A DNA stretch of 32,958 nt, taken from the NCBI GenBank assembly GCA_947459165.1, contig CANHCW010000005.1:1-32958 (forward strand), in the 5' to 3' direction. A program made the translations under genes and the position numbers. Below are positions 3,388 to 32,958 of the stretch, piece by piece; the stretch's first letter is position 1; the number at the start of each line of letters is the position of its first letter. This stretch comes from Flavobacteriales bacterium. Lineage in GTDB: Bacteria; Bacteroidota; Bacteroidia; NS11-12g; UBA955. The notes under the pieces were generated by a model. The model saw nothing but the letters and a program-made list of their open reading frames with translations, ran no database searches and was not told the DNA's origin.

Positions 3388-4112
3388 TGGGGCATGAGAT
3401 GCATAAGGGCAGCAATGTGGGTGTGAGGCGGAAGTTGATCGAGAGAATAAGGCAAATTCGCCGGGCAATAAGCGGTGTTGTTTAGAAACCGCTTGAATAA
3501 ATCCTGAATGCCATGAGATGCATGTTCCTCGGCCATAAGTTCTACCCTTGCGTTTTGAATTCCAATTCCGGCTTTTTTAAGGGCCGCAGAAGCAAAATAC
3601 AGCACTTCAGCTTCATTCTCAACGGGGTATGAATTTAGCAAGAGCAATTGTTCTCCGGAATAAGCGGCGAGCAGCGCTTTTCCACTGTGAACAAAAACAA
3701 GCACATATTGATCGAATTGACTGCTTCTGTGCTGAGACATGAGATAAAACGGTAAGGCAAGCGGAACCGCATCTGCGGCATGAAAACATAAGCTCAGATC
3801 TTTGCTAAAGTCAACGCAAGCCACTTTTTCAGATAATTCAGGCACAGGAGCCGATTTGAAAACAGTGGGAATGGCCTTAAAAACAGATTTTAGCGAAAGA
3901 TGAATCAATTTTACTGCGCCCATCTCCTGCTTTACTGTTTCCGCATGGGAAGCCTCAATCTGATTGAGGATACGGTGAAAAACCATATCTCCGGCGGGAT
4001 TGAAAGCCATATAATAGCCGATTGTACCATCGTGAAAATGGTACAGGGTGCTGCCGGCCTGCTGTCCTTCTCTATGCTCCCACAAAAGTTGCATTGGGGC
4101 AAATTTCAGCAA
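3363..4112 (-). CDS. DUF3822 family protein
   Basis: Size and position immediately upstream of rsmD-coaD, as common in Bacteroidota; family call from recall. Confidence 0.65.
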   Translation of the reverse strand: MLKFAPMQLLWEHREGQQAGSTLYHFHDGTIGYYMAFNPAGDMVFHRILNQIEASHAETVKQEMGAVKLIHLSLKSVFKAIPTVFKSAPVPELSEKVACVDFSKDLSLCFHAADAVPLALPFYLMSQHRSSQFDQYVLVFVHSGKALLAAYSGEQLLLLNSYPVENEAEVLYFASAALKKAGIGIQNARVELMAEEHASHGIQDLFKRFLNNTAYCPANLPYSLDQLPPHTHIAALMHLMPQCALPEEI

Positions 4113-4171: not shown

Positions 4172-7100
4172 ATGAACAAACACATTGGCTTACTGCTTCT
4201 AACCCTTATTGGCACCCAGGTTTCGGCTCAACTCGTTCCCGGAGCCAAGGGCAATTTATACAGAAGCTCAAACAATCCGCTTTATTGGAAAAATAAGAAA
4301 CCTTATGAAGGTTACTGGCAGCAGGATGTTTACTATCAGATTAAAGCAAAGCTGGATGATGCCACAGAAATCATTACCGGAGAAGAAGAGTTGGTGTATT
4401 ACAACAATTCTCCGCATACTTTAACTGAAGCCTATTTCCACTTATACCAAAATGCGGTTCAGCCCGGAAGTTTGGTTGATGAGTTGTACAATACAAACAA
4501 AACCAAGCATGAATTTGGGCGATACGAAAAGGAGAAGAAAGGGACAACCATCTCGGTATTTGCTGTAAACGGAAAGAGTGCTGATTTTACGGTGGACTAC
4601 ACAGTTCTCAAATGCAAATTACCCATAGAACTGAAACCCGGCGACAGTTGTGTGTTCACCATTGGGTTTAAAACCCATTTCGATCGTGGTACCATTCGCA
4701 GAAGAATGAAAGTTTACGATCATCATGGCTATAAGCACTTCAACGGAGTTCATTGGTACCCCAGAATTTGTGTTTACGACCGCAAATTCACCTGGGAAAC
4801 TGCCCAGCACATGGAACATGAATTTTATGGTGATTTCGGATCTTACGATGTGCAACTGGAATTGCCCAATCATTATGTGAACGAGGCCACGGGCGTACTT
4901 CAAAATCCTTCAGAGATTTTTCCCGGCGATTTGAGGCAAAAACTGGATATTTCCAATTTCGCTGATAAGAAAATCGGTTCACAACCCAGCGTGATTGTTG
5001 CGCCCGACGGCACTTACAAGGCTTGGAGATACCATGCCGACAATGTGCACGATTTTGCCTGGACTGCCGATCCTACTTACCGCATTGGTGAGGTAAAATG
5101 GAATGGCGTGAGTTGCATTACCCTGGCACAGGAAAACAATGCAGCCGGATGGCAAAAGTCGGCGAAGTTTGTGGCCGATGTCGTTTCGGTTTACAGCCGC
5201 GATTTTGGCATGTATGAATACCCCAAAATGGTGGCAGCCGATGCAGCTGATGGAATGGAATATCCCATGCTCACTCTCGATGGAGGCTATTATCCAAGTC
5301 ATCAGGGCCTACTTGCACATGAGATTGGGCATAACTGGTTTTTTGGAATGGTGGGCAACAACGAAACCTACAGAGCCAGTCTGGATGAAGGGTTTACCCA
5401 ATTTTTAACCAGCTGGAGCATGAAACAGTTAAGCAGCAAAACCGGTCTTTCAGTTGATTATGGAACAGTTTACGCAGGTTATTTATTCGATGCACTGGAT
5501 GGAGAAGATGCAATTTTGAATACGCACAGCGACGATTTTAAAAATGCCATTGGCCACGGTGGTGGATACAAGCATGTGTATTACAAAACGGCAACCATGC
5601 TTTACAATTTGCAATATGTATTGGGAGATTCAGTGTTTCAAAAAGCAATGAAAAACTATGTTAGACAATGGAAAATCTGTCATCCCTATGTGGAAGATTT
5701 CAGACAAACCATCATTCAAAGCGCCGGCACTGACTTGAACTGGTTTTTTGATCAGTGGTTTGAAACAACCAAAGCGGCAGACTACGGGGTAAAAGCCAAA
5801 AGGTTGAATGGAGACAAGTATAAAATTACCGTAAAACGCAAGGGCGACATGGTTATGCCCGTTTATTTGCTGTTTGTTCCGAAGGATGATGGCGGAGTAT
5901 TTAGTCGGAATATTCCTGTCAGTCAGTATCAAAGACCTCCAGTGAAAAACAACCTGAGCCCTTGGATTGGGTGGGGAAAACTGAGGCCCGAATATTCCTT
6001 TGAGGTGACTGTTCCCAATGGGTTAAAAAGGGTTTATCTCGATCCTTCAGAACGATTGGCGGACATTAACCGCATGGACAATGTTTGGCCACGAACACCG
6101 CAACTTTCATTTGACAAGGACAATGTACGAGACAATTCGTTTCTGGGTGGATACAAAATGTTGCTGAGGCCTGATTTTTGGTACAATTCAGAAGATGGAA
6201 TCAAAACCGGAATAAAATGGAGTGGACAGTATGCCATGCGCAGGCATATAACAGATGTGGCAGCATGGTATGGCACCGGCATTGGCACCTATCTGGGCAA
6301 TCAGCCCGCTGACCGTTTTTCTTACCTCGCAAATTACAGTCATGAAATTAGAAGGAAAGGCCAAATTAATTTACACAGCCGTTACTTGGCCGGATTATGG
6401 CTGCACAAAGCCGGCTGGATAAAGGAAGAAGGAAACAACGAATGGTCTGTTAACCTTCAGTATATGCGCAGGCAACGCTTTGCATACCTAAACCCGTATG
6501 CTGATTTTCCCATGATGGCATCACTCAGCCCTGAGCAGAATTTGTGGAGCACGGGTCGGAACATCAGCCTCAATGTGGGCTACAAACACAGCTACAGATA
6601 TTTTACAGGCAAGGGAAGCATTAGCACTCATTTCAGGACCTCTACACCCTGGAGTGACGCCCAATATGGTTTAGTTTCCGTTAACTGGCTGAATCAGCAG
6701 AATCTTGGTGATAAATTGGAATTCCGAACCAGGGTGTTTGGCGCCTTGGGACAAGGTAACAAATTCCCGGCTGAATCGGCGATCTATGTGTCGGGGGCCA
6801 ATCCTGAAGAATTACAATTCAATAAATTCACTCGTGATTTGGGAGCCATTCCACTGTCAGATTTGAACGCTTCTGCATCTACCATTGGGCAGGCATTGGG
6901 CATGGGAGGCGGATTAAACATTCGCGGCATGCAAGGCTACCTTGCGCCTTACAATGCAGGAGATACTGTATTAAGCTTCATAAGGGGCAACAGAGGCATG
7001 GCTGTGAATGGCGAACTAGATTTTAGCAGGTTGCTTTCATTTATTCCGCGCATTTCAATGATTTCGGGTAATATTTACCTATTTGCCGATGCAGGTGTAA

Positions 7101-7336
7101 TGGGCATTCAAACAGCCAAACGCACGGACTATTCCGGAATACTGGCCGATGCCGGTTTGGGTATGGTGGTAAGCATTAAAAACTGGAACAGACTTTCTCC
7201 TGGTAAAAAGCAGTGGTTCACAGGTTCTGCTCCTTTGAATATCAGACTTGATTTGCCCTTTTTTGTGAATGCAGTACCTGAATCTCAAAAACACATTCAA
7301 TTCAGGTGGGTATTGGCCATCAACAGGGCGTTTTAA
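4172..7336 (+). CDS. Secreted M1-family (gluzincin) aminopeptidase with C-terminal Omp85-like outer-membrane beta-barrel domain
   Basis: Signal peptide MNKHIGLLLLTLIGTQVSAQ; HEIGH (5318-5332) with downstream Glu in DEGFTQF; GMEYPM; C-terminal alternating strands with RGMQGY, LFADAG and terminal Phe. Start trimmed from 4022. Confidence 0.85.
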   Translation: MNKHIGLLLLTLIGTQVSAQLVPGAKGNLYRSSNNPLYWKNKKPYEGYWQQDVYYQIKAKLDDATEIITGEEELVYYNNSPHTLTEAYFHLYQNAVQPGSLVDELYNTNKTKHEFGRYEKEKKGTTISVFAVNGKSADFTVDYTVLKCKLPIELKPGDSCVFTIGFKTHFDRGTIRRRMKVYDHHGYKHFNGVHWYPRICVYDRKFTWETAQHMEHEFYGDFGSYDVQLELPNHYVNEATGVLQNPSEIFPGDLRQKLDISNFADKKIGSQPSVIVAPDGTYKAWRYHADNVHDFAWTADPTYRIGEVKWNGVSCITLAQENNAAGWQKSAKFVADVVSVYSRDFGMYEYPKMVAADAADGMEYPMLTLDGGYYPSHQGLLAHEIGHNWFFGMVGNNETYRASLDEGFTQFLTSWSMKQLSSKTGLSVDYGTVYAGYLFDALDGEDAILNTHSDDFKNAIGHGGGYKHVYYKTATMLYNLQYVLGDSVFQKAMKNYVRQWKICHPYVEDFRQTIIQSAGTDLNWFFDQWFETTKAADYGVKAKRLNGDKYKITVKRKGDMVMPVYLLFVPKDDGGVFSRNIPVSQYQRPPVKNNLSPWIGWGKLRPEYSFEVTVPNGLKRVYLDPSERLADINRMDNVWPRTPQLSFDKDNVRDNSFLGGYKMLLRPDFWYNSEDGIKTGIKWSGQYAMRRHITDVAAWYGTGIGTYLGNQPADRFSYLANYSHEIRRKGQINLHSRYLAGLWLHKAGWIKEEGNNEWSVNLQYMRRQRFAYLNPYADFPMMASLSPEQNLWSTGRNISLNVGYKHSYRYFTGKGSISTHFRTSTPWSDAQYGLVSVNWLNQQNLGDKLEFRTRVFGALGQGNKFPAESAIYVSGANPEELQFNKFTRDLGAIPLSDLNASASTIGQALGMGGGLNIRGMQGYLAPYNAGDTVLSFIRGNRGMAVNGELDFSRLLSFIPRISMISGNIYLFADAGVMGIQTAKRTDYSGILADAGLGMVVSIKNWNRLSPGKKQWFTGSAPLNIRLDLPFFVNAVPESQKHIQFRWVLAINRAF

Positions 7337-11104: not shown

Positions 11105-12625
11105 TCAGTTGATAACCAGTTTTTTCATTCCAACACCGTTGTTGAAAATCATGCGAACCATGTACACTCCTGCAGGAGCTTTCAGGTCGATTACACTGTG
11201 ATCGCTGTTCAGATTCATTTTCTGAATCACGCGGCCGTTCATGTCAACCAGTTCTGCGCTGAGCAGTTTGTGGTCGTTCCAGTTGTTGTGAATGATGATT
11301 TGAGAAGTAGCGGGGTTTGGAGCTACTGTTACATTGCTGCCCAAATCTGAATTGTCAATTCCTACTGAGCTAACCAGTCCCAGAGAAACGGCCAAACGAG
11401 GGGCAACATAACCCATCATGCTATCGATATAGAGCATGGCGCGTGTTTTACCGAACAGTTTGTGCAATGGGTTTGATGCATTGCCGTTGGCAATGATGGT
11501 TGAGGCATTTGGCAAACCAAGTGCTTTAATGGCAGCAGTATCCCACCACTCATAAGGACCTGAACCATTTGCAGCGCCGGCAATGGGAAACAAACCATCG
11601 TAACCCTTGTTCAGTTTGTTGGCCTGCAAAGTATAAACATCATTTACTTTACCCTTGTAAGAAGCATTATTGCCAAAATTATTGGTTCTTTTCATTACAT
11701 CAAAGCTTCCGGAAACATCAACCACATTCAAAGGAGGATTTGTTCCTGGAACACTTACAATACCCAGATTGTAAGGTGCAAACGGATCCTGAATGCCGTG
11801 AACGCTGATGATGGGCAAGCTGCCTTTTTCCAACCAGCTGCTATCACCCAAAGCACCACCGAAATTGAATGCAATTTGAACATCTGAAGTGTGCCCTTTG
11901 TGGTTCTCAATAACCAAAGCACCGGGTGTTCCAGGGATTTTGAAACCCATACGGTCACCCATTTTCAGACTGTCTTCAACCATCCAGCGCTTGGCATCGA
12001 GGTTGTAAAATTTCTCTAGGCGAATTTCCGACTGACGATCGAGGGTTGCATACGCGAGGGTGATGTAACCACCGGTTCCCTGTCCGCCAACTGCAATTTT
12101 AGTGCTGTCAATGGCATAAGCATTTCCTGCTTTAACAGTTTTCTTGAAGAAGCGAACGCAGGCAGCCAAATCCTGAACACCGCGGTAAGCTGCATTGATG
12201 ATGGTTTCACGACGAACACTTTCATTGGGGCTTACAGGGTTCCATCCCAAACGATAACTCATGGATGCAACCACATAACCGCGTTGGGCCAGTTTTTTAC
12301 AAAAAGCCACAGTGGCGCTGTCATCGCGGGCACCTGTGGGTCCATTGTTACCGTAACGGGGAAGGAAATTACCCGTGTGCAGGAAAATAATCAAGGGTTT
12401 TGCAGCATCGGTATTTCCTGTTGAGCTGTACAAATCCATGGTCAGGTTTTCAGGTGCCGGACTGCCACCCTGAAGCACCGGTAAAATGGTAATGTGCGTA
12501 GCGTACTGCACATTTTTGGTAATCTGCACCGTAGATTCGGCATAGATGGGATCAACATACTTTATCTGAGCCAGAATGGATCCGGCAGCAAAGCATGTGA
12601 TGACTGAAAGTAATAGTTTTTTCAT
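11105..12625 (-). CDS. Secreted alpha/beta hydrolase-fold protein with T9SS type A C-terminal sorting domain; nucleophile Ser apparently absent
   Basis: Signal peptide; KPLIIFLHTGNF, SYRLGW, GGQGTGGY, VHGIQDPFAPY; C-terminal VAPNPATSQIIIH...VDMNGRVIQ...AGVYMVRM...KKLVIN. Confidence 0.88.
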   Translation of the reverse strand: MKKLLLSVITCFAAGSILAQIKYVDPIYAESTVQITKNVQYATHITILPVLQGGSPAPENLTMDLYSSTGNTDAAKPLIIFLHTGNFLPRYGNNGPTGARDDSATVAFCKKLAQRGYVVASMSYRLGWNPVSPNESVRRETIINAAYRGVQDLAACVRFFKKTVKAGNAYAIDSTKIAVGGQGTGGYITLAYATLDRQSEIRLEKFYNLDAKRWMVEDSLKMGDRMGFKIPGTPGALVIENHKGHTSDVQIAFNFGGALGDSSWLEKGSLPIISVHGIQDPFAPYNLGIVSVPGTNPPLNVVDVSGSFDVMKRTNNFGNNASYKGKVNDVYTLQANKLNKGYDGLFPIAGAANGSGPYEWWDTAAIKALGLPNASTIIANGNASNPLHKLFGKTRAMLYIDSMMGYVAPRLAVSLGLVSSVGIDNSDLGSNVTVAPNPATSQIIIHNNWNDHKLLSAELVDMNGRVIQKMNLNSDHSVIDLKAPAGVYMVRMIFNNGVGMKKLVIN

Positions 12626-12683: not shown

Positions 12684-15485
12684 TCATGGTTCATAGGTGA
12701 AACTTATGTAGGCCATTCTTCCAATTCTTGGGCCGCCATACACCTGGAAAACCATGTTGTTGGTGAGGTTCGAAGCCCCTATTTTCAAGGTGGACTTCCA
12801 TTTGGGTATGGTTTTATTGAACTGCGCATCCAACGACCAATATGAAGGCACATCACCGGTAAACTGAGGCGAACCCTCAAAACGGAAACCTTCAACAAAT
12901 TTGAAATTGATGTTGAAGCCCATGTTCTTCAACAGGTAGTTGTTTCCGAACAAATTTATTTTTTTATTCATGTCTGAAGCTCCGAACATGATATTGAATT
13001 TGTGACGGGGTGTATTGAATGCAGGGATTAATGCATCGGTGCTGCCCATTCTATCAAGCACATTCCAGCTCCAGTTGGCACCCAACATGAAACAATTACC
13101 GAAAAAGTAATTGGCACCTGCCGATAATCCTTGAGTGCTTACAATGTCTCTGCTGTTTGACGCCACTCGATAGGCCTGTGCAACTTTCGGAAAAGGCAGA
13201 GATGAATCGAACTGCACATCAACCACCACTCGATAGCCAATGAAGTTTTGATAAAAACTCCTGTAATATCCGGCATCTACCACCAACTTCCCGTCGAACA
13301 GAATCCCTTTGTATCCAATTTCAGCTGTTTTTACACTTTCAGGCCTGATTGGTGCAATGTTGATGGGGCGCAGAGTGTCTCTATTCAGTGTATTTAAATA
13401 ATCAATAAAATTTTGCAACTCACATACATTATTTACCCCGTTTTTATTACCCAACAAAATGGCTCTACCAACATTGTAATAAAGAAACTGGTCCTGCAAT
13501 GTTGGATTTCTAATAGCACTGCTGAAACTGGCTCTCCAGGTATTGGTTTTGGTTTTTGAGTAAATGATTGACGCTGCCGGTGAAAATAAAAAAGGGAAGT
13601 TTTGGTTTTTATCTACCCTGGCAGTGGCGTTGATTTTCCATTTGTTGCTCCACAGGCGCCTTTCAAAACCAGCATACGCGCCTGCCTCAAAGTTGGTAAT
13701 GCGCGCATTGCCGGTATCGAGAAAAATGGTACCATTGGAGTTAGGGGTGTACAATCTGGCGCTAAAACCGGTGGTAAATTTCCACGAACCGGCCGAAAAA
13801 CGCCTCTCTCCAGTTAGGTGATAAAGCGCCGACCTGTCGAAAAACCTAGAACCCACCAATCCGCCTTCGCGGCTATAGCTGTAACGATCTGTAAATTGAC
13901 TTTTACGGGCCTCGAACTCCGGGGTTCCCGGAACCGGCTTGTTATAATAAGGGTCGGGATATGTTAGGCCCTGATAATTAACTCCTTTATTTGCCTGTGC
14001 GCGAGCCATGGAATGCCACAAATTCAAACTGTCGGCAAATTTTTCAAACAATGCATCCTGGTCAGCCGCATAATTGGGATTAACCAAAAAACTGGGGATA
14101 GCTTTATAACCGGGAAGGTTTTTTACCCTTCCCGCAATGTAGTTAAACCAATAATTTTGGTAATCGGAAAACCAATAGCCACTGGGTTTTGCATCGTTCT
14201 GCATTAGGAATGCCGTGATCACCGCATCGTAGGTTCTACCTGCATCCTCATTGGTGGCATAGAAACGCAAATGTCCTTTCTTACCCAGCCACTCCAGTCT
14301 GTTTTGAAAGAACAGAATTCCATTCAGACTGTAGCGGTTATCACCTTGATACACGGTTGTGCCTGTTCCGAAATTAAAGGCATACTGAATTTCATTTCTG
14401 CTATTGGGTTTGTACGCCAGTAACAAGCTCGTTTTTAAGTTACGGGTATTATAATTCACCAAATCCTTTTCCTGATAGCCATCGCGGTAATAAGCCCGCA
14501 GACCAGGTTGAATAAAACGGGTTGACAATGAAATTTGATCGTTTGCTGCCGTGCCAAAAACTTCATCACCGTAGCGGTTTACAGCATCGTATCCGCCCGG
14601 ATTATCCCGCCCGGCCTTGCTATCTAAAGTGGGATCGTAATTGTCGGCCACCCAGTCGTAAGCCCGCATATAACTCAATCCGGTTTTGAATGCAAACACA
14701 TCTCTGCCCCGGCGGTTTTTATATGCTTTTGCATATCGCGCCATGACCTGACCGAATTCCCTTTCACCAAGTTTAACCTGGGCACTGAAGCCCTGATGCT
14801 TCCAGGGATCTTTGGTGGTCATACTGATAACACCATTGAATGCATTGGGGCCGTAGTAAGCACTGCTTGCGCCCACCACAATTTCAGTATTGGCTACATC
14901 AAGCTCGTTGGCGCCAAGAAAATTACCCAATGAAAAATTCAAACCTGGAGCCTGATTGTCAACCCCATCAATGAGTTGTAAACTGCGTACCGGACTGGTG
15001 CTGTTAAAACCGCGGGTGTTGACGATGCGAAAACCCAAACTGGCTGCTGTTACATCCACTCCCCTAAGGTGACCTAAGCCTTCATAAAAGTCGCTGGCAG
15101 GAGTTTCTTTAATGGCTTTGGCATTCAAACTTTCCACTGTTACCGGGCTTTCACGCAGTTTATCCTTTAAGCGGTTGTGGCTGATTTTAACCAAGCCCAC
15201 ATTTTTGGCCACCGATTCAAGAGAAATAGTCCAGAAGGCACTTCCATCGTAACGGCGGGTATCCTCCATGTAATCAACGGCGGTAATGGTTACAACCACA
15301 GCGCCTTTTAAATCGATGCTGAAAAGTCCGGCAGTATCGGTAATGGCGCTTCCGCCTTTCCATACCAGTGATGCCGAAGGAATTCCGAAACCTGTTGCCG
15401 GATCGGTAACCTTGCCTTTAACAACCTGTGCCTGCAACATTTGAATAAAGAACAATCCAAACAGGGCAAGTCCAACTTTTTTCAT
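12684..15485 (-). CDS. TonB-dependent receptor with N-terminal carboxypeptidase-regulatory-like domain
   Basis: Signal peptide; VVKGKVTDPATGFGIPSASLVWKGG; plug region SFNSTSPVRSLQLIDGVDNQAPG...VVGASSAYYGPNAFNGVISMTTK; C-terminal aromatic beta-strands. Confidence 0.93.
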   Translation of the reverse strand: MKKVGLALFGLFFIQMLQAQVVKGKVTDPATGFGIPSASLVWKGGSAITDTAGLFSIDLKGAVVVTITAVDYMEDTRRYDGSAFWTISLESVAKNVGLVKISHNRLKDKLRESPVTVESLNAKAIKETPASDFYEGLGHLRGVDVTAASLGFRIVNTRGFNSTSPVRSLQLIDGVDNQAPGLNFSLGNFLGANELDVANTEIVVGASSAYYGPNAFNGVISMTTKDPWKHQGFSAQVKLGEREFGQVMARYAKAYKNRRGRDVFAFKTGLSYMRAYDWVADNYDPTLDSKAGRDNPGGYDAVNRYGDEVFGTAANDQISLSTRFIQPGLRAYYRDGYQEKDLVNYNTRNLKTSLLLAYKPNSRNEIQYAFNFGTGTTVYQGDNRYSLNGILFFQNRLEWLGKKGHLRFYATNEDAGRTYDAVITAFLMQNDAKPSGYWFSDYQNYWFNYIAGRVKNLPGYKAIPSFLVNPNYAADQDALFEKFADSLNLWHSMARAQANKGVNYQGLTYPDPYYNKPVPGTPEFEARKSQFTDRYSYSREGGLVGSRFFDRSALYHLTGERRFSAGSWKFTTGFSARLYTPNSNGTIFLDTGNARITNFEAGAYAGFERRLWSNKWKINATARVDKNQNFPFLFSPAASIIYSKTKTNTWRASFSSAIRNPTLQDQFLYYNVGRAILLGNKNGVNNVCELQNFIDYLNTLNRDTLRPINIAPIRPESVKTAEIGYKGILFDGKLVVDAGYYRSFYQNFIGYRVVVDVQFDSSLPFPKVAQAYRVASNSRDIVSTQGLSAGANYFFGNCFMLGANWSWNVLDRMGSTDALIPAFNTPRHKFNIMFGASDMNKKINLFGNNYLLKNMGFNINFKFVEGFRFEGSPQFTGDVPSYWSLDAQFNKTIPKWKSTLKIGASNLTNNMVFQVYGGPRIGRMAYISFTYEP

Positions 15486-15621
15486 TTTGGTAATTGACCG
15501 GGCAATTTAGGCAATCTTATCAAATTATCACCAAAAATGGCTAGTGGATTTCAGTTATTTTAAAAACCCAAGCAATTTGGAAAGCCTGGCTGAAACAGAG
15601 AAAAGCAAACACTGTTGGCCT

Positions 15622-15629
15622 TATATTTG
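15622..15629 (+). promoter_or_regulatory. Putative -7 box of the E1 fusion gene
   Basis: TATATTTG matches TAnnTTTG, 12 nt before the ATG at 15642. Confidence 0.4.
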
Positions 15630-15641
15630 CGACCCTCCGAA

Positions 15642-17687
15642 ATGGTAAGCAAAGACATACTGCTCAGGGCCTGGGAAACCATTTGCACAACAAGGGCGAT
15701 GGCTCGATTGTACGATGAAAACCGGCAAATTACCAAATATGTGCACAGCACAAGCAAAGGCCACGAAGCAATTCAGCTGGCCACTGCCTGGCACCTGAAA
15801 GCCATGGATTTTGCCTATCCATACTACCGCGATGAAAGTTTGCTCATAGGCATGGGAATGCAACCCTACGAATTGATGTTACAGTTGCTGGCCAAGGCCG
15901 ACGACCCGTTTAGCGGCGGAAGAACCTACTACTCGCACCCCTCGCTGAACAGACCCGACATGCCCAAAATGCCCCACCAAAGCAGTGCTACCGGCATGCA
16001 GGTTATTCCTGCTACCGGTGCGGCCCATGGTTTGAAGTACCTGGAAAAGCAAGGTTTGCTGCAGGGCGTTGAAAAACCCATTGTGCTTTGCAGTTTGGGC
16101 GATGGAAGTGTAACTGAGGGCGAAGTGGCAGAGGCTTTTCAGATGGCGGTGCTGCACAACCTCCCCATTTTGTATTTGGTGCAGGATAACGACTGGGGAA
16201 TTAGCGCAAGCGGCAACGAAATGCGTGCGATGGACGCATTTGATTATGCCCTGGGTTTTAAGGGTATGCGACGCATGAGAATTAACGGAAGTGATTTTGT
16301 GCAATGCTATACCGATATGGAGAAGGCTGTTCAGTTTGTAAGGGAAAACCGCGCTCCCATGTTGGTGCATGTAAAGGTTCCCCTGTTAGGACACCATACC
16401 AGCGGGGTGCGAAGCGAATGGTACAGAGATGACTTGGAAGAAGACGAAAGATTGGATCCTCTGCCCCGTTTGAAAAACTTGCTGCTCGATTTGGGTGAAA
16501 ACGAAGCCACACTGGCTGAACTGGACCAAAAGGCCACTATGCGGGCCGAGCAGGATTTTGAAAAGGCCAAAGCCGCTGCCGATCCCACACCGGAAACCTT
16601 ATACCTGCATGAGTTTGCACCCACACCCGTTACCGAAGAAAAAGGAGTGCGAGAGCCGGCGGGTCGTGAACCTGTAATTATGGTGGATGCAGCGCTGTAT
16701 GCAGTGGATGAAATTTTAAAAAAACACCCCGAGGCCTTGCTTTACGGACAGGATGTGGGCAAACGACTGGGCGGCGTTTTTCGCGAGGCGGCCACCCTGG
16801 CGCAGAAATATGGCGATCACCGCGTATTCAATACGCCCATACAGGAAGCTTATATTGTTGGCAGCACGGCCGGCATGAGTGCTGTGGGCTGTAAACCCAT
16901 TGTTGAAATTCAGTTTGCCGATTATATATGGCCGGGTGTAAACCAACTGGTGGAAGAACTGAGCAAAAGCTGTTACCTGAGCAACGGAAAATATCCCATT
17001 GCCTCGGTGGTGAGAATTCCGACCGGCGCCTACGGCGGTGGCGGCCCTTACCACAGCGGAACGGTTGAAAGCAGCATTCTTCCTATTAAAGGGATTAAAA
17101 TTGCCTATCCATGCACCGCTGCGGACATGAAAGGCTTGATGAAATCGGCCTTTTACGATCCCAATCCGGTGGTAATGTTTGAGCACAAAGGCATTTACTG
17201 GAGCAAAATGCCGGGAACCGAGCTGGCGAAAACCCCGGAACCCGATGAGGAATACATGATTCCTTTTGGAAAAGGCAGGGTAGCTTTGCAGGCCTCGGAA
17301 GAAAAAATAAATACGGGTGAATCATGCTGTGTCATTACTTACGGCATGGGTGTTTACTGGGCCATTTCAGCGGCCAAAGAGCTGCCCGGACAGGTTGAAG
17401 TGATTGATTTGCGCACCCTGGCACCGTATGACGAGGAATTGATTTTCAGCACCGTAAACCGACACGGAAAAGTACTGGTGTTGACCGAAGAAACCCTGAG
17501 AAACAGCTTTGCCGAGGCCATTGCAGGCCGCATTGCACAGGAGTGCTTTACACGCTTAGATGCGCCGGTACAGACTTTGGGTGCAGCGAATTTGCCTGCC
17601 GTACCGCTGAACATGGGGCTGGAAGCCGAAATGCTGCCCAATGCCAAAAAAGTGGCAGATAAACTAAGGGATTTGCTGAGCTGGTAA
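15642..17687 (+). CDS. Fused alpha/beta thiamine-diphosphate-dependent 2-oxoacid dehydrogenase E1 component
   Basis: TPP motif GDGSVTEGEVAEAFQMAVLHNLPILYLVQDN; beta-type half LYGQDVGKRLGGVFREA...IQEAYIVGSTAGMSAVG. Start trimmed from 15615. Confidence 0.92.
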   Translation: MVSKDILLRAWETICTTRAMARLYDENRQITKYVHSTSKGHEAIQLATAWHLKAMDFAYPYYRDESLLIGMGMQPYELMLQLLAKADDPFSGGRTYYSHPSLNRPDMPKMPHQSSATGMQVIPATGAAHGLKYLEKQGLLQGVEKPIVLCSLGDGSVTEGEVAEAFQMAVLHNLPILYLVQDNDWGISASGNEMRAMDAFDYALGFKGMRRMRINGSDFVQCYTDMEKAVQFVRENRAPMLVHVKVPLLGHHTSGVRSEWYRDDLEEDERLDPLPRLKNLLLDLGENEATLAELDQKATMRAEQDFEKAKAAADPTPETLYLHEFAPTPVTEEKGVREPAGREPVIMVDAALYAVDEILKKHPEALLYGQDVGKRLGGVFREAATLAQKYGDHRVFNTPIQEAYIVGSTAGMSAVGCKPIVEIQFADYIWPGVNQLVEELSKSCYLSNGKYPIASVVRIPTGAYGGGGPYHSGTVESSILPIKGIKIAYPCTAADMKGLMKSAFYDPNPVVMFEHKGIYWSKMPGTELAKTPEPDEEYMIPFGKGRVALQASEEKINTGESCCVITYGMGVYWAISAAKELPGQVEVIDLRTLAPYDEELIFSTVNRHGKVLVLTEETLRNSFAEAIAGRIAQECFTRLDAPVQTLGAANLPAVPLNMGLEAEMLPNAKKVADKLRDLLSW

Positions 17688-29762: not shown

Positions 29763-30944
29763 ATGCCGACCTGGCGAATCTTCATAAAATTATTGTTGAT
29801 TGTGGTGTTAGCCACTCCATTCGCCCTGTTCTGGAAAAATTGCCTCCCCAGCGATGAGAGCCGTTTACAGTTCGTCCTGCGGTTCGATGATATTTATTTA
29901 AAACCCAACCCCATTCAGGATAGCCTCATCGGTATTTTTAAAAAGGCCAAAATCCCTTTTGTAGCCTCAATCATTCCATATCAAGTTGGACCGGAAAAAC
30001 AAATGATTCCAAATGACCGTATTTATGCCAAAAAACTTAGAGAGATGGCACTAGCGGGCGAAACAGACATTTTTATGCATGGACTGTTCCATCGCAAAAC
30101 CGGGCAAGACGAATTTTCAGGATTACCTCTTGAGCAACAATCCAGCATGATTGAACAAGGCAAAAAAGAACTTAAAAAACAACTCGGACTTGATGTAACA
30201 GGCTTTGCCCCACCCTGGAATGGCTACGACCCCAATACAACCGCCGCCTTGTCAACTCAAAGATTTTCCATCTTCAGCTCAAGCATTCATGGCGACCGCA
30301 GCAATTGCAATTTGCACTTCCTTCCTGCCACCTGCTATGCAGTTTCCGATGCCTTGAAAATAATTGAGGAGAAATCAGGGTGTGATGGAATTGTTGTATT
30401 GCTCATTCACAGTTACAGCTTTCAAACTGAAAAAGATTTTAAAGACCTGAGCAAACTGCTAACAAACATCAAAGAAAAAAACATACAGGTTACGCTACCG
30501 GGGAAACTCCAAAACCAAGGAAAGGATTTATCCTGCATTCGCCTTCGACTGCACCATCAACCGCTTTTTTGGATGCTTTCCCGATTTGAGCTCCTTCATA
30601 TTTCCCCTGCGGTGTATTACTCGCGAAACCTGCTCATCCCGTCGCTGCTCACTGAACTTGTTTTAATTTTTATGGTTGTTTTAGCCACACTCCGTGCACT
30701 TGACAACCTGCTCAGAAAAAACTGGTTTTTCTTGCCTGCCCTAATTGTTGTTTGTCTGGGAATACTCACTTATTTATTTCCCGCCTATCATATAAGCTGG
30801 AAAAAAATACTGTTGTGTGAAGTTGCTTTTGCAACCGCTATAACCTCGGGCTATTTAATGGTAAAAAGGAATGGATTGATTCTCAAACCAACGCAGGCCA
30901 CTTCTCCGGATTCACTTCGTGCATCATTTCATAAACCTTCATAA
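29763..30944 (+). CDS. Polysaccharide deacetylase-like (DUF2334-type) protein with N-terminal and C-terminal membrane segments
   Basis: LQFVLRFDDIYL, DIFMHGLFHRK, GFAPPWNGYDP; C-terminal hydrophobic helices. Start trimmed from 29724. Confidence 0.72.
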   Translation: MPTWRIFIKLLLIVVLATPFALFWKNCLPSDESRLQFVLRFDDIYLKPNPIQDSLIGIFKKAKIPFVASIIPYQVGPEKQMIPNDRIYAKKLREMALAGETDIFMHGLFHRKTGQDEFSGLPLEQQSSMIEQGKKELKKQLGLDVTGFAPPWNGYDPNTTAALSTQRFSIFSSSIHGDRSNCNLHFLPATCYAVSDALKIIEEKSGCDGIVVLLIHSYSFQTEKDFKDLSKLLTNIKEKNIQVTLPGKLQNQGKDLSCIRLRLHHQPLFWMLSRFELLHISPAVYYSRNLLIPSLLTELVLIFMVVLATLRALDNLLRKNWFFLPALIVVCLGILTYLFPAYHISWKKILLCEVAFATAITSGYLMVKRNGLILKPTQATSPDSLRASFHKPS

Positions 30945-32958
30945 ACACTTCGTCTACTCCCGGTTTGCTGAAATAATCGCCGTCGCTGCCGTAAGCAGGC
31001 CTGTGCGCCTTGGCCGTAATGGTCAGCGGCTTGCTGTCCAACCAACGGTAGCCATTCTGCTCCTCCACAATCTGTTGCAGAATGTACGCCGACGCCCCGC
31101 CTGGAACATCTTCGTCCAGCACCACAAGGCGGTTGGTTTCCTTCAAACTCTCCACAATGCTGTGACCCAAATCGAAAGGCAACAAAGTTTGAACATCAAT
31201 AATCTCCACCCGTATGTCGTGCTGTGCAAGTAAATCTGCTGCCTCCAGCGCAATGCGACAGCAACTGCCATAAGTAACCAGTGTCGCGTGTTCGCCATAC
31301 CTTAAAATATCCGGGCGGCCCAAAGGCACAGTAAATTCACCAATGTTGGACGGCATCTTTTCCTTAATGCGGTAACCATTCAAACATTCCACCACCAAGG
31401 CCGGATCGTCGCCTTTGAGCAAGGTGTTGTACATACCGGCAGCCTGGGTCATATTTCGTGGAACACACACATACATTCCCCTCACAGCATTGATTACCGC
31501 ACCCATCGGACTTCCGCTGTGCCAAATTCCTTCCAGCCTGTGCCCCCGAGTTCTAATGATAATCGGGGCTTTTTGCCCGCCTTTGGTTCGGTATTGCAGC
31601 GTGGCAATGTCGTCACTCATCACCTCCAGTGCGTACAGCAAATAATCCAGGTATTGAATTTCGGCAATCGGCCTCAATCCGCGCATAGCGGCACCAATGC
31701 CTTCGCCCACAATACTCCATTCCCGAATGCCTTTGTCGGTTACCCGCAACTCACCGTATTTTTCCTGCAAACCGCTGAAACCCTGGTTCACATCGCCAAT
31801 TTTACCCACATCTTCGCCAAAGGCAAAAACCCTCGGGTCGCGTTCCATGGCCGCGTCAAAGCAAGCGCGAACCACCATATATCCATCGGCTGTTTCGTCG
31901 GTAAACACGGCCGGAACTTCATTCACCTTCAGCGCAGAATTGCCGCTGTTGCTATGTAAATGACTGCTGTACCGGTCGCCGTTCAACTCATTAAATTCAT
32001 TGTAAAAATCAAGCAGGGGTTTCCTCACCGCATCGCTTATTCCCACTGTCAGTCGCAAGGCTTTATGTAGCGCCGCCCCTAAATCTCTCCGTAAAGGTTC
32101 ACCGGCACTTTGGAGGGCGGCATTCATCTCTGCAAATTCAGCCGTAGCAACACCCTGCGCCTGTAATTGATTGATTACTTCGCAAAAAACCGCTAATTCT
32201 GCTTTTATGCTGCTTAAAAACTCAGTCCAGGCATCTTTTTGCGCCGTTCTAACTGCAGACATGGCTTCGTTCTCTATGGAATCCAGCTCTTCGGCACCGG
32301 CCAGCCCGTTTTCCTCAATCCAACGGCGCATGGTAGAAATACAGTCGTAATCCTGTTCCCATTGAAGGCGTTCTTTGCTTTTATATCTTTCGTGACTTCC
32401 GCTGGTACTATGGCCCTGGGGTTGGGTCATCTCGGTTACATGCACCAGCACGGGCGTATGCTTCTGCCTGCAAACATCTGCCGCATTGCGGTACACCTCG
32501 CACAGCTCGGCGTAATCCCAGCCTTTTGCCGTAAATATTTCCATTCCCACACCGTTTTTGTCGGTCTGAAAACCCTTCATAATGGCAGAAATGTTTTCCT
32601 TGGCCGTTTGATACTTAGCCGGAACCGAAATGCCATAACCATCATCCCAAACACTCATCAGCAAGGGAACCTGCATTACACAAGCGGCATTCATGGTCTC
32701 CCAAAAAATGCCCTCACTGCTGCTCGCATTGCCAATGGTACCAAAGGCAATCTCGTTGCCATTCACTGAAAAATCGCTGAACTGCTTCAGGTCTTTGTTT
32801 TCTCTGTATAACTTGCTCGCTACCGCCAGACCCAGCAAACGGGGCATCTGACCGGCTGTAGGAGAGATATCGGCGCTGCAATTCGGCCTGTCGGTTTGAG
32901 GCAGCCAGTTTCCTTCATCATCAAGCAAACGGGTGGCAAAATGTCCGTTCATGCTTCG
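30883..32958 (-). CDS. Second fused alpha/beta 2-oxoacid dehydrogenase E1 (5' end truncated by the right window edge)
   Basis: FGTIGNASSSEGIFWETMNAACVMQVPLLMSVWDDGYGIS; GEDVGKIGDVNQGFSGLQEKYG; frame stays open (R S M N G H F A T R) to the window end. Confidence 0.92.
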   Translation of the reverse strand, partial: RSMNGHFATRLLDDEGNWLPQTDRPNCSADISPTAGQMPRLLGLAVASKLYRENKDLKQFSDFSVNGNEIAFGTIGNASSSEGIFWETMNAACVMQVPLLMSVWDDGYGISVPAKYQTAKENISAIMKGFQTDKNGVGMEIFTAKGWDYAELCEVYRNAADVCRQKHTPVLVHVTEMTQPQGHSTSGSHERYKSKERLQWEQDYDCISTMRRWIEENGLAGAEELDSIENEAMSAVRTAQKDAWTEFLSSIKAELAVFCEVINQLQAQGVATAEFAEMNAALQSAGEPLRRDLGAALHKALRLTVGISDAVRKPLLDFYNEFNELNGDRYSSHLHSNSGNSALKVNEVPAVFTDETADGYMVVRACFDAAMERDPRVFAFGEDVGKIGDVNQGFSGLQEKYGELRVTDKGIREWSIVGEGIGAAMRGLRPIAEIQYLDYLLYALEVMSDDIATLQYRTKGGQKAPIIIRTRGHRLEGIWHSGSPMGAVINAVRGMYVCVPRNMTQAAGMYNTLLKGDDPALVVECLNGYRIKEKMPSNIGEFTVPLGRPDILRYGEHATLVTYGSCCRIALEAADLLAQHDIRVEIIDVQTLLPFDLGHSIVESLKETNRLVVLDEDVPGGASAYILQQIVEEQNGYRWLDSKPLTITAKAHRPAYGSDGDYFSKPGVDEVFMKVYEMMHEVNPEKWPALV

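Follow-up and report, generated by a model that had tools for sequence, protein, structure and literature searches.

We report a protein of a Flavobacteriales bacterium in which a zinc aminopeptidase of the M1 family is joined to a C-terminal barrel, and it is probable, in our judgement, that the Omp85-type barrel holds the enzyme on the periplasmic face of the outer membrane. The gene lies in a stretch of 32,958 nucleotides, referred to here as the window, where the open reading frame at 4172-7336 (plus strand) is intact, with an ATG at 4172 and a stop codon ending at 7336. Its product of 1054 residues runs from a signal peptide through an M1 metallopeptidase to a barrel of about 400 residues. 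The M1-barrel protein is common in Bacteroidota and apparently undescribed. As the original prediction for this DNA had supposed, we found no description of an M1-Omp85 protein in the open-access literature, to which our search was confined (subscription papers and preprints were outside its scope).

Signal peptide and M1 metallopeptidase

The mechanically derived reading frame can be extended upstream to an alternative start, TTG at 4022; the signal peptide, MNKHIGLLLLTLIGTQVSA followed by Q, begins at 4172. From its sequence it is predicted to be of the Sec/SPI type, comprising residues 1-19 (4172..4228, plus strand) with cleavage at VSA/Q and no lipobox Cys. In order to judge conservation we used a family alignment of 76 sequences, namely the window's protein and 75 relatives. 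Cleavage would leave an N-terminal Gln, as is expected after signal peptidase cleavage under the Bacteroidetes Q-rule (PMC5837995), and the predicted site obeys this rule, because, among the 48 aligned sequences that have a residue at position 20, 46 show Q.

The M1 N-terminal beta domain was placed at residues ~52-320 (4325..5131, plus strand) with the help of a structure model built from the 76-sequence alignment and of Foldseek, in which IRAP, ERAP1 and aminopeptidase N matched the full model over ~620-660 alignment columns with E values of ~1e-19 to 1e-23. It is followed by the catalytic domain at residues ~321-537 (5132..5782, plus strand), delimited by Pfam PF01433, alignment to PepN, and conservation. 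Pfam Peptidase_M1 (PF01433) matched residues 378-529 with an E value of 2.9e-17 and a score of 63.4 bits (cut-off 27.7). When residues 377-541 were aligned by phmmer to E. coli PepN, H383, H387 and E406 fell on chain positions 297, 301 and 320, and the window's 'VYYK' was paired with 'VYEK' of PepN. All the marks of an M1 enzyme are found: the zinc site HExxH(18)E (H383/E384/H387 and E406), the catalytic Tyr (Y470), and the substrate-binding Glu of a GxMEN-type motif (E363 of GMEYP, 361-365), and each of these six residues, like the GMEYP motif as a whole, is identical in 76/76 aligned sequences. The signal peptide and the complete gluzincin active site that had been noticed earlier are therefore both borne out. 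Judged by these residues the active site looks intact, and the enzyme would be expected to be active.

Six model strands (538-546, 549-556, 564-570, 577-581, 607-613 and 618-623) make up a further beta domain after the catalytic one (residues ~538-623; 5783..6040, plus strand), probably corresponding to the Ig-like domain III of M1 enzymes. Their helical domain IV is absent from the 76-sequence model, in which residues 624-661 (6041..6154, plus strand) form a linker leading directly from the M1 part to barrel strand 1. Pfam detected no POTRA domain, and there is no room for one between the end of the M1 domains at ~623 and the first barrel strand, which begins at 662.

The C-terminal barrel

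While a single-sequence AlphaFold model was uninformative (pLDDT 31), the model of the whole protein from the 76-sequence alignment reached a mean pLDDT of 85.8 and a pTM of 0.83. It gives the C-terminus as a predicted 16-stranded barrel and not as a soluble Ig- or HEAT-like M1 domain. The barrel occupies residues 662-1054 (6155..7333, plus strand) and ends in Phe; its onset lies at about residue 655-661, or ~nt 6134, close to the ~6130 originally proposed. Strands 1-6 were modelled at 662-672, 676-687, 691-701, 716-726, 730-739 and 742-753, strands 7-11 at 756-767, 796-810, 813-824, 831-845 and 849-864, and strands 12-15 at 941-950, 964-980, 991-1002 and 1022-1032, while the terminal strand 16 was only partly assigned by DSSP (1047-1050 marked). 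A loop of 76 residues (865-940) separates strands 11 and 12, so that in the model the long loop falls at the site of L6 in Omp85 proteins. The in/out alternation of hydrophobicity was moderate, with p <= 0.05 in 6/16 barrel strands versus 4/17 strands of the M1 domains.

Two signatures characterize Omp85 proteins: L6 bears (V/I)RG(Y/F) at its tip, strand 13 bears (F/G)xDxG, and an Arg-Asp salt bridge connects the two; the BamA/TamA form has FxDxG together with a conserved glycine on strand 14 (Maier et al., 2015; PMC4490367). In the window's protein the L6 tip motif reads GGGLNIRGM (912-920; 6905..6931, plus strand), and its family form is GGGLN(L/I)RG(Y/F). R918 and G919 of this long loop are found in 76/76 sequences and are preceded by L, I, V or M, and residue 920 is Y in 53, F in 14 and M in 9 of the 76, Met being shared by the window's protein and 8 of the 75 relatives. 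The strand-13 motif YLFADAG (969-975; 7076..7096, plus strand), of the family form FxDxG, lies within strand 964-980 with F971, D973 and G975 invariant (76/76). Both G995 and G997 on strand 14 (991-1002; 7142..7177, plus strand) are likewise kept in every sequence, as are P1021, R1025, D1027 and P1029, whereas the terminal F1054 is present in 75/76 and E948 of strand 12 in 73/76. By sequence and model, then, both 'lid-lock' signatures are present in register and in the BamA/TamA form. The motifs first quoted for this region, IRGMQGY (917-923), LFADAG (970-975), PLNIRLDLPFF (1021-1031) and the terminal Phe, are all there, and they are not chance, because R918, G919, F971, D973, G975, P1021, R1025, D1027, P1029 and F1054 within them show this near-complete conservation.

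Since neither Pfam nor NCBIfam matched any model to residues 654-1054, other tests were needed for an Omp85 reading of the C-terminus. Across the 76 family members Pfam gave no barrel match sensible for an outer-membrane protein, and the Omp85 model PF01103 matched none of them. We compared profiles by hhalign, using the barrel alignment (A3) or the same alignment with stand-alone relatives added (A4), against Omp85 barrels of the BamA/TamL type from the same order. A3 gave a probability of 68.1% (E 4.8e-5), with the RG and DAG regions joined, and A4 gave 90.6% (E 1.3e-6, score 56.9), with an alignment that starts at the RG motif and extends to the C-terminus of each profile. In contrast, control scores were 21.8 for TonB-receptor barrels, 16.8 for FadL-type barrels and 20.0 for a reversed alignment, all with probabilities <= 0.6%, and 30 block-shuffled alignments reached at most 37.8. 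No Omp85 protein was found when A3 and A4 were run against PDB sequences; a sub-threshold A3 match there (E 0.054) was to an unrelated protein and was dismissed as chance, and A4 had none. Among the best 50 Foldseek matches listed for the full model, all M1 entries, there was no solved Omp85 structure.

Taken together, profile and motifs indicate a barrel of the Omp85 type that lies beyond the reach of Pfam's barrel model. The central proposal of the original prediction, the fusion of an M1 metallopeptidase with an Omp85-type barrel, is supported by the model topology, by the lid-lock motifs in register and by hhalign with its controls, where the similarity is to BamA/TamL-type barrels and not to TonB receptors or FadL. 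On this evidence the barrel is not one unrelated to Omp85, an outcome that would have spoken against the prediction. One amendment concerns POTRA: the strict Omp85 definition requires at least one POTRA domain, none is present here, and the protein is for this reason described as carrying an Omp85-type barrel and not filed as a full Omp85 protein.

Distribution and gene neighbourhood

A survey of the fusion, as had been suggested from the start, found matches to the barrel profile in 207/395 sampled genomes of the window's class and in 87/195 genera, in reading frames that are mostly 1060-1120 aa long. With this many matches of fusion length, the M1-barrel fusion is not an assembly artefact. 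All of 58 related genomes had an M1-type match, most of them with the full-length fusion, and in a sample of the phylum the profile matched 57/299 genomes. Outside the window's class the strongest matches were stand-alone reading frames of ~400-470 aa, and full-length fusions occurred in a few other families.

The barrel is a separate module, since the same barrel occurs without M1. Eight stand-alone regions from another class of the phylum (L192-L198 and L200) encode barrels of ~400-460 aa, several with a signal peptide of their own, and mostly lie near genes that were named from sequence as NUDIX, acetate-kinase-like or phosphotransacetylase-like. We also considered whether these might be split fusions, with the barrel beside a separate M1 gene, and found no nearby M1 gene in any of the eight. 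In a tree of 21 barrels the stand-alone forms, the fusions of the class and two fusions from other classes were split with strong support; the tree is unrooted and does not decide the order of fusion and stand-alone forms.

The neighbours of the fusion gene are housekeeping genes (DUF3822-like, rsmD-like, NUDIX, pyrE and coaD), each in <= 15/75 loci, and no clue to an operon or pathway was found in the 75 loci. The Bacteroidota promoter pattern matched at chance level, with no match before the fusion gene. In two genomes of one genus, a separate reading frame with a Pfam Omp85 match (378 and 386 aa; G038:C66:8894-9361 and G047:C49:59705-60442) lies no more than ~1 kb from the M1-barrel gene and is encoded on the other strand. 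Elsewhere in the window, two reading frames of 690 and 689 aa (15615-17687, plus strand; 30883-32952, minus strand) were both read, from sequence only, as fused alpha-beta E1 of a 2-oxoacid dehydrogenase, and at 11105-12625 and 12684-15485 (minus strand) a hydrolase-like secreted protein with a C-terminal domain similar to T9SS sorting domains adjoins a TonB-dependent receptor (PF00593).

Proposed role and relation to known systems

We propose that the precursor would be exported via Sec, that the signal peptide would be cut at VSA/Q, and that BAM would insert the 16 C-terminal strands into the outer membrane. L6 would then fold into the lumen and be locked there through R918 and its strand-13 partner D973, leaving the pore closed, while the M1 domain would face the periplasm, where its short linker would join strand 1. 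Both chain ends are expected in the periplasm, because the strand number is even, the M1 part comes before strand 1, and L6 is predicted outside. PlpD was formerly believed to export its patatin domain; protease, proximity and lipid data then showed that this domain lies only in the periplasm, and no FplA was detected on the cell surface (PMC11116518). On the grounds of the barrel topology and of the location of the PlpD hydrolase, we favour a periplasmic rather than a surface position for the M1 domain. There it would trim N-terminal residues of peptides near the outer membrane. Peptide trimming under the outer membrane is in our view its most likely role, suggested by an exopeptidase-type active site that is intact and would sit at the inner face of that membrane. 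As the neighbouring genes give no pathway, we infer the substrate, and our guess would be peptides just imported or freed by envelope proteolysis.

Surface display, with the M1 domain carried through or beside the barrel to work outside the cell, was once proposed for type Vd proteins, PlpD among them (reviewed in PMC11116518), and an outside peptidase would fit the nutrient capture of Bacteroidota. We consider it unlikely here: the M1 part comes before strand 1, which in Omp85 proteins is entered from the periplasm, a folded domain of ~600 residues would need passage through a pore that L6 closes, the barrel is the last part of the chain, with no T9SS sorting domain behind it, and the location data for PlpD and FplA speak against it. 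The original prediction of a membrane-anchored enzyme, in the periplasm or on the surface, is thus narrowed, with periplasmic tethering as the better default and the surface as a rival only; likewise its PlpD/FplA precedent stands for a hydrolase on an Omp85-type barrel and fails for display.

A working translocon or insertase, in which the M1 domain replaces POTRA as the handler of clients and clips them or clears stalled ones, would put client translocation or insertion and N-terminal processing into one chain. The motifs are in the FxDxG form of the BamA/TamA insertases, and residues of L6 and the strands are conserved as strictly as the catalytic ones, seemingly beyond what a mere anchor needs. 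Against this, POTRA is lacking, no client gene adjoins, and separate genes encode BamA/TamL-type proteins, so that such a function seems improbable. That the C-terminus belongs to a different family of 16-strand outer-membrane proteins, with convergent RG and DAG motifs, we regard as very improbable. Pfam and HMMER did not match it to Omp85, and a sister M1 paralogue lacks these motifs in a C-terminus that is likewise rich in strands; yet the two motifs, the strand positions, the strand-14 glycine and the controlled hhalign comparison all concur on Omp85.

With M1, the Omp85 barrel family gains a new type of passenger. Hydrolase-Omp85 fusions have so far rested mainly on patatin proteins, and M1 adds a second enzyme class. 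A fusion found in roughly half of the genomes sampled from one of the most common bacterial classes, and unseen by the Pfam barrel model, shows that the reuse of Omp85 barrels to carry enzymes goes beyond the catalogued cases. The question of anchor versus transporter is cleanly testable here, since the barrel also occurs naturally on its own and can be compared in that form.

With the M1 family, represented by PepN, ERAP1 and IRAP, the protein shares the N-terminal beta domain, the thermolysin-like HExxH..E site with catalytic Tyr, and the following beta domain; it differs in having the barrel where these enzymes have helical domain IV, whereas PepN is soluble. A 997-aa protein of the same genome (L104:112-3105, minus strand, contig G000:C115) is alike in its signal peptide, in an M1 region that is 32% identical and in a strand-rich C-terminus of ~400 aa. 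This C-terminus has neither the RG nor the FxDxG motif, and hhalign gave E 0.16 to Omp85 and 33% to the window's barrel; possibly it represents a second M1-barrel family, unrelated or far diverged. Related proteins were found in 17/29 genomes of the order.

BamA and TamL of Bacteroidota resemble the window's barrel in topology, in the RG motif of L6, in FxDxG on strand 13 and in the strand-14 glycine, but they carry POTRA and no enzyme, and such proteins are separately encoded in genomes with the M1-barrel protein. The best Omp85 match of the genome (L101:1396-3522, minus strand), which is BamA/TamL-like, has the L6 motif NSLRAW, with Ala for the Gly of RG. BamP and BamM of the Flavobacterium BAM complex were considered as homologues and set aside, as their paper mentions no peptidase.

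One Omp85 subfamily is defined by PF00149, which we take to be a phosphoesterase model. Heinz and Lithgow (2014) distinguish ten Omp85 subfamilies, call this one, 'Metallo', a metalloprotease, and do not use the word 'peptidase' (PMC4104836). Their 'noNterm' and 'Metallo' proteins are barrels without POTRA, or with an N-terminal metal-dependent hydrolase, as here; the stand-alone barrel relatives resemble the 'noNterm' layout, and the N-terminal domain of 'Metallo' is PF00149 and not M1 (PMC4104836).

The closest parallel in layout is provided by the 'type Vd' proteins PlpD of Pseudomonas aeruginosa and FplA of Fusobacterium, which likewise have a signal peptide, an N-terminal hydrolase and a C-terminal 16-strand Omp85-type barrel. 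The window's protein differs in carrying an M1 zinc peptidase (Pfam identifies the N-terminal domain as M1, with no patatin domain) instead of a patatin lipase, in being without POTRA, in belonging to another phylum, and in having a barrel too divergent for Pfam. In both systems an N-terminal hydrolase precedes an Omp85-type barrel in one chain, and the hydrolase lies on the periplasmic side, as shown for PlpD and predicted for the M1-barrel protein.
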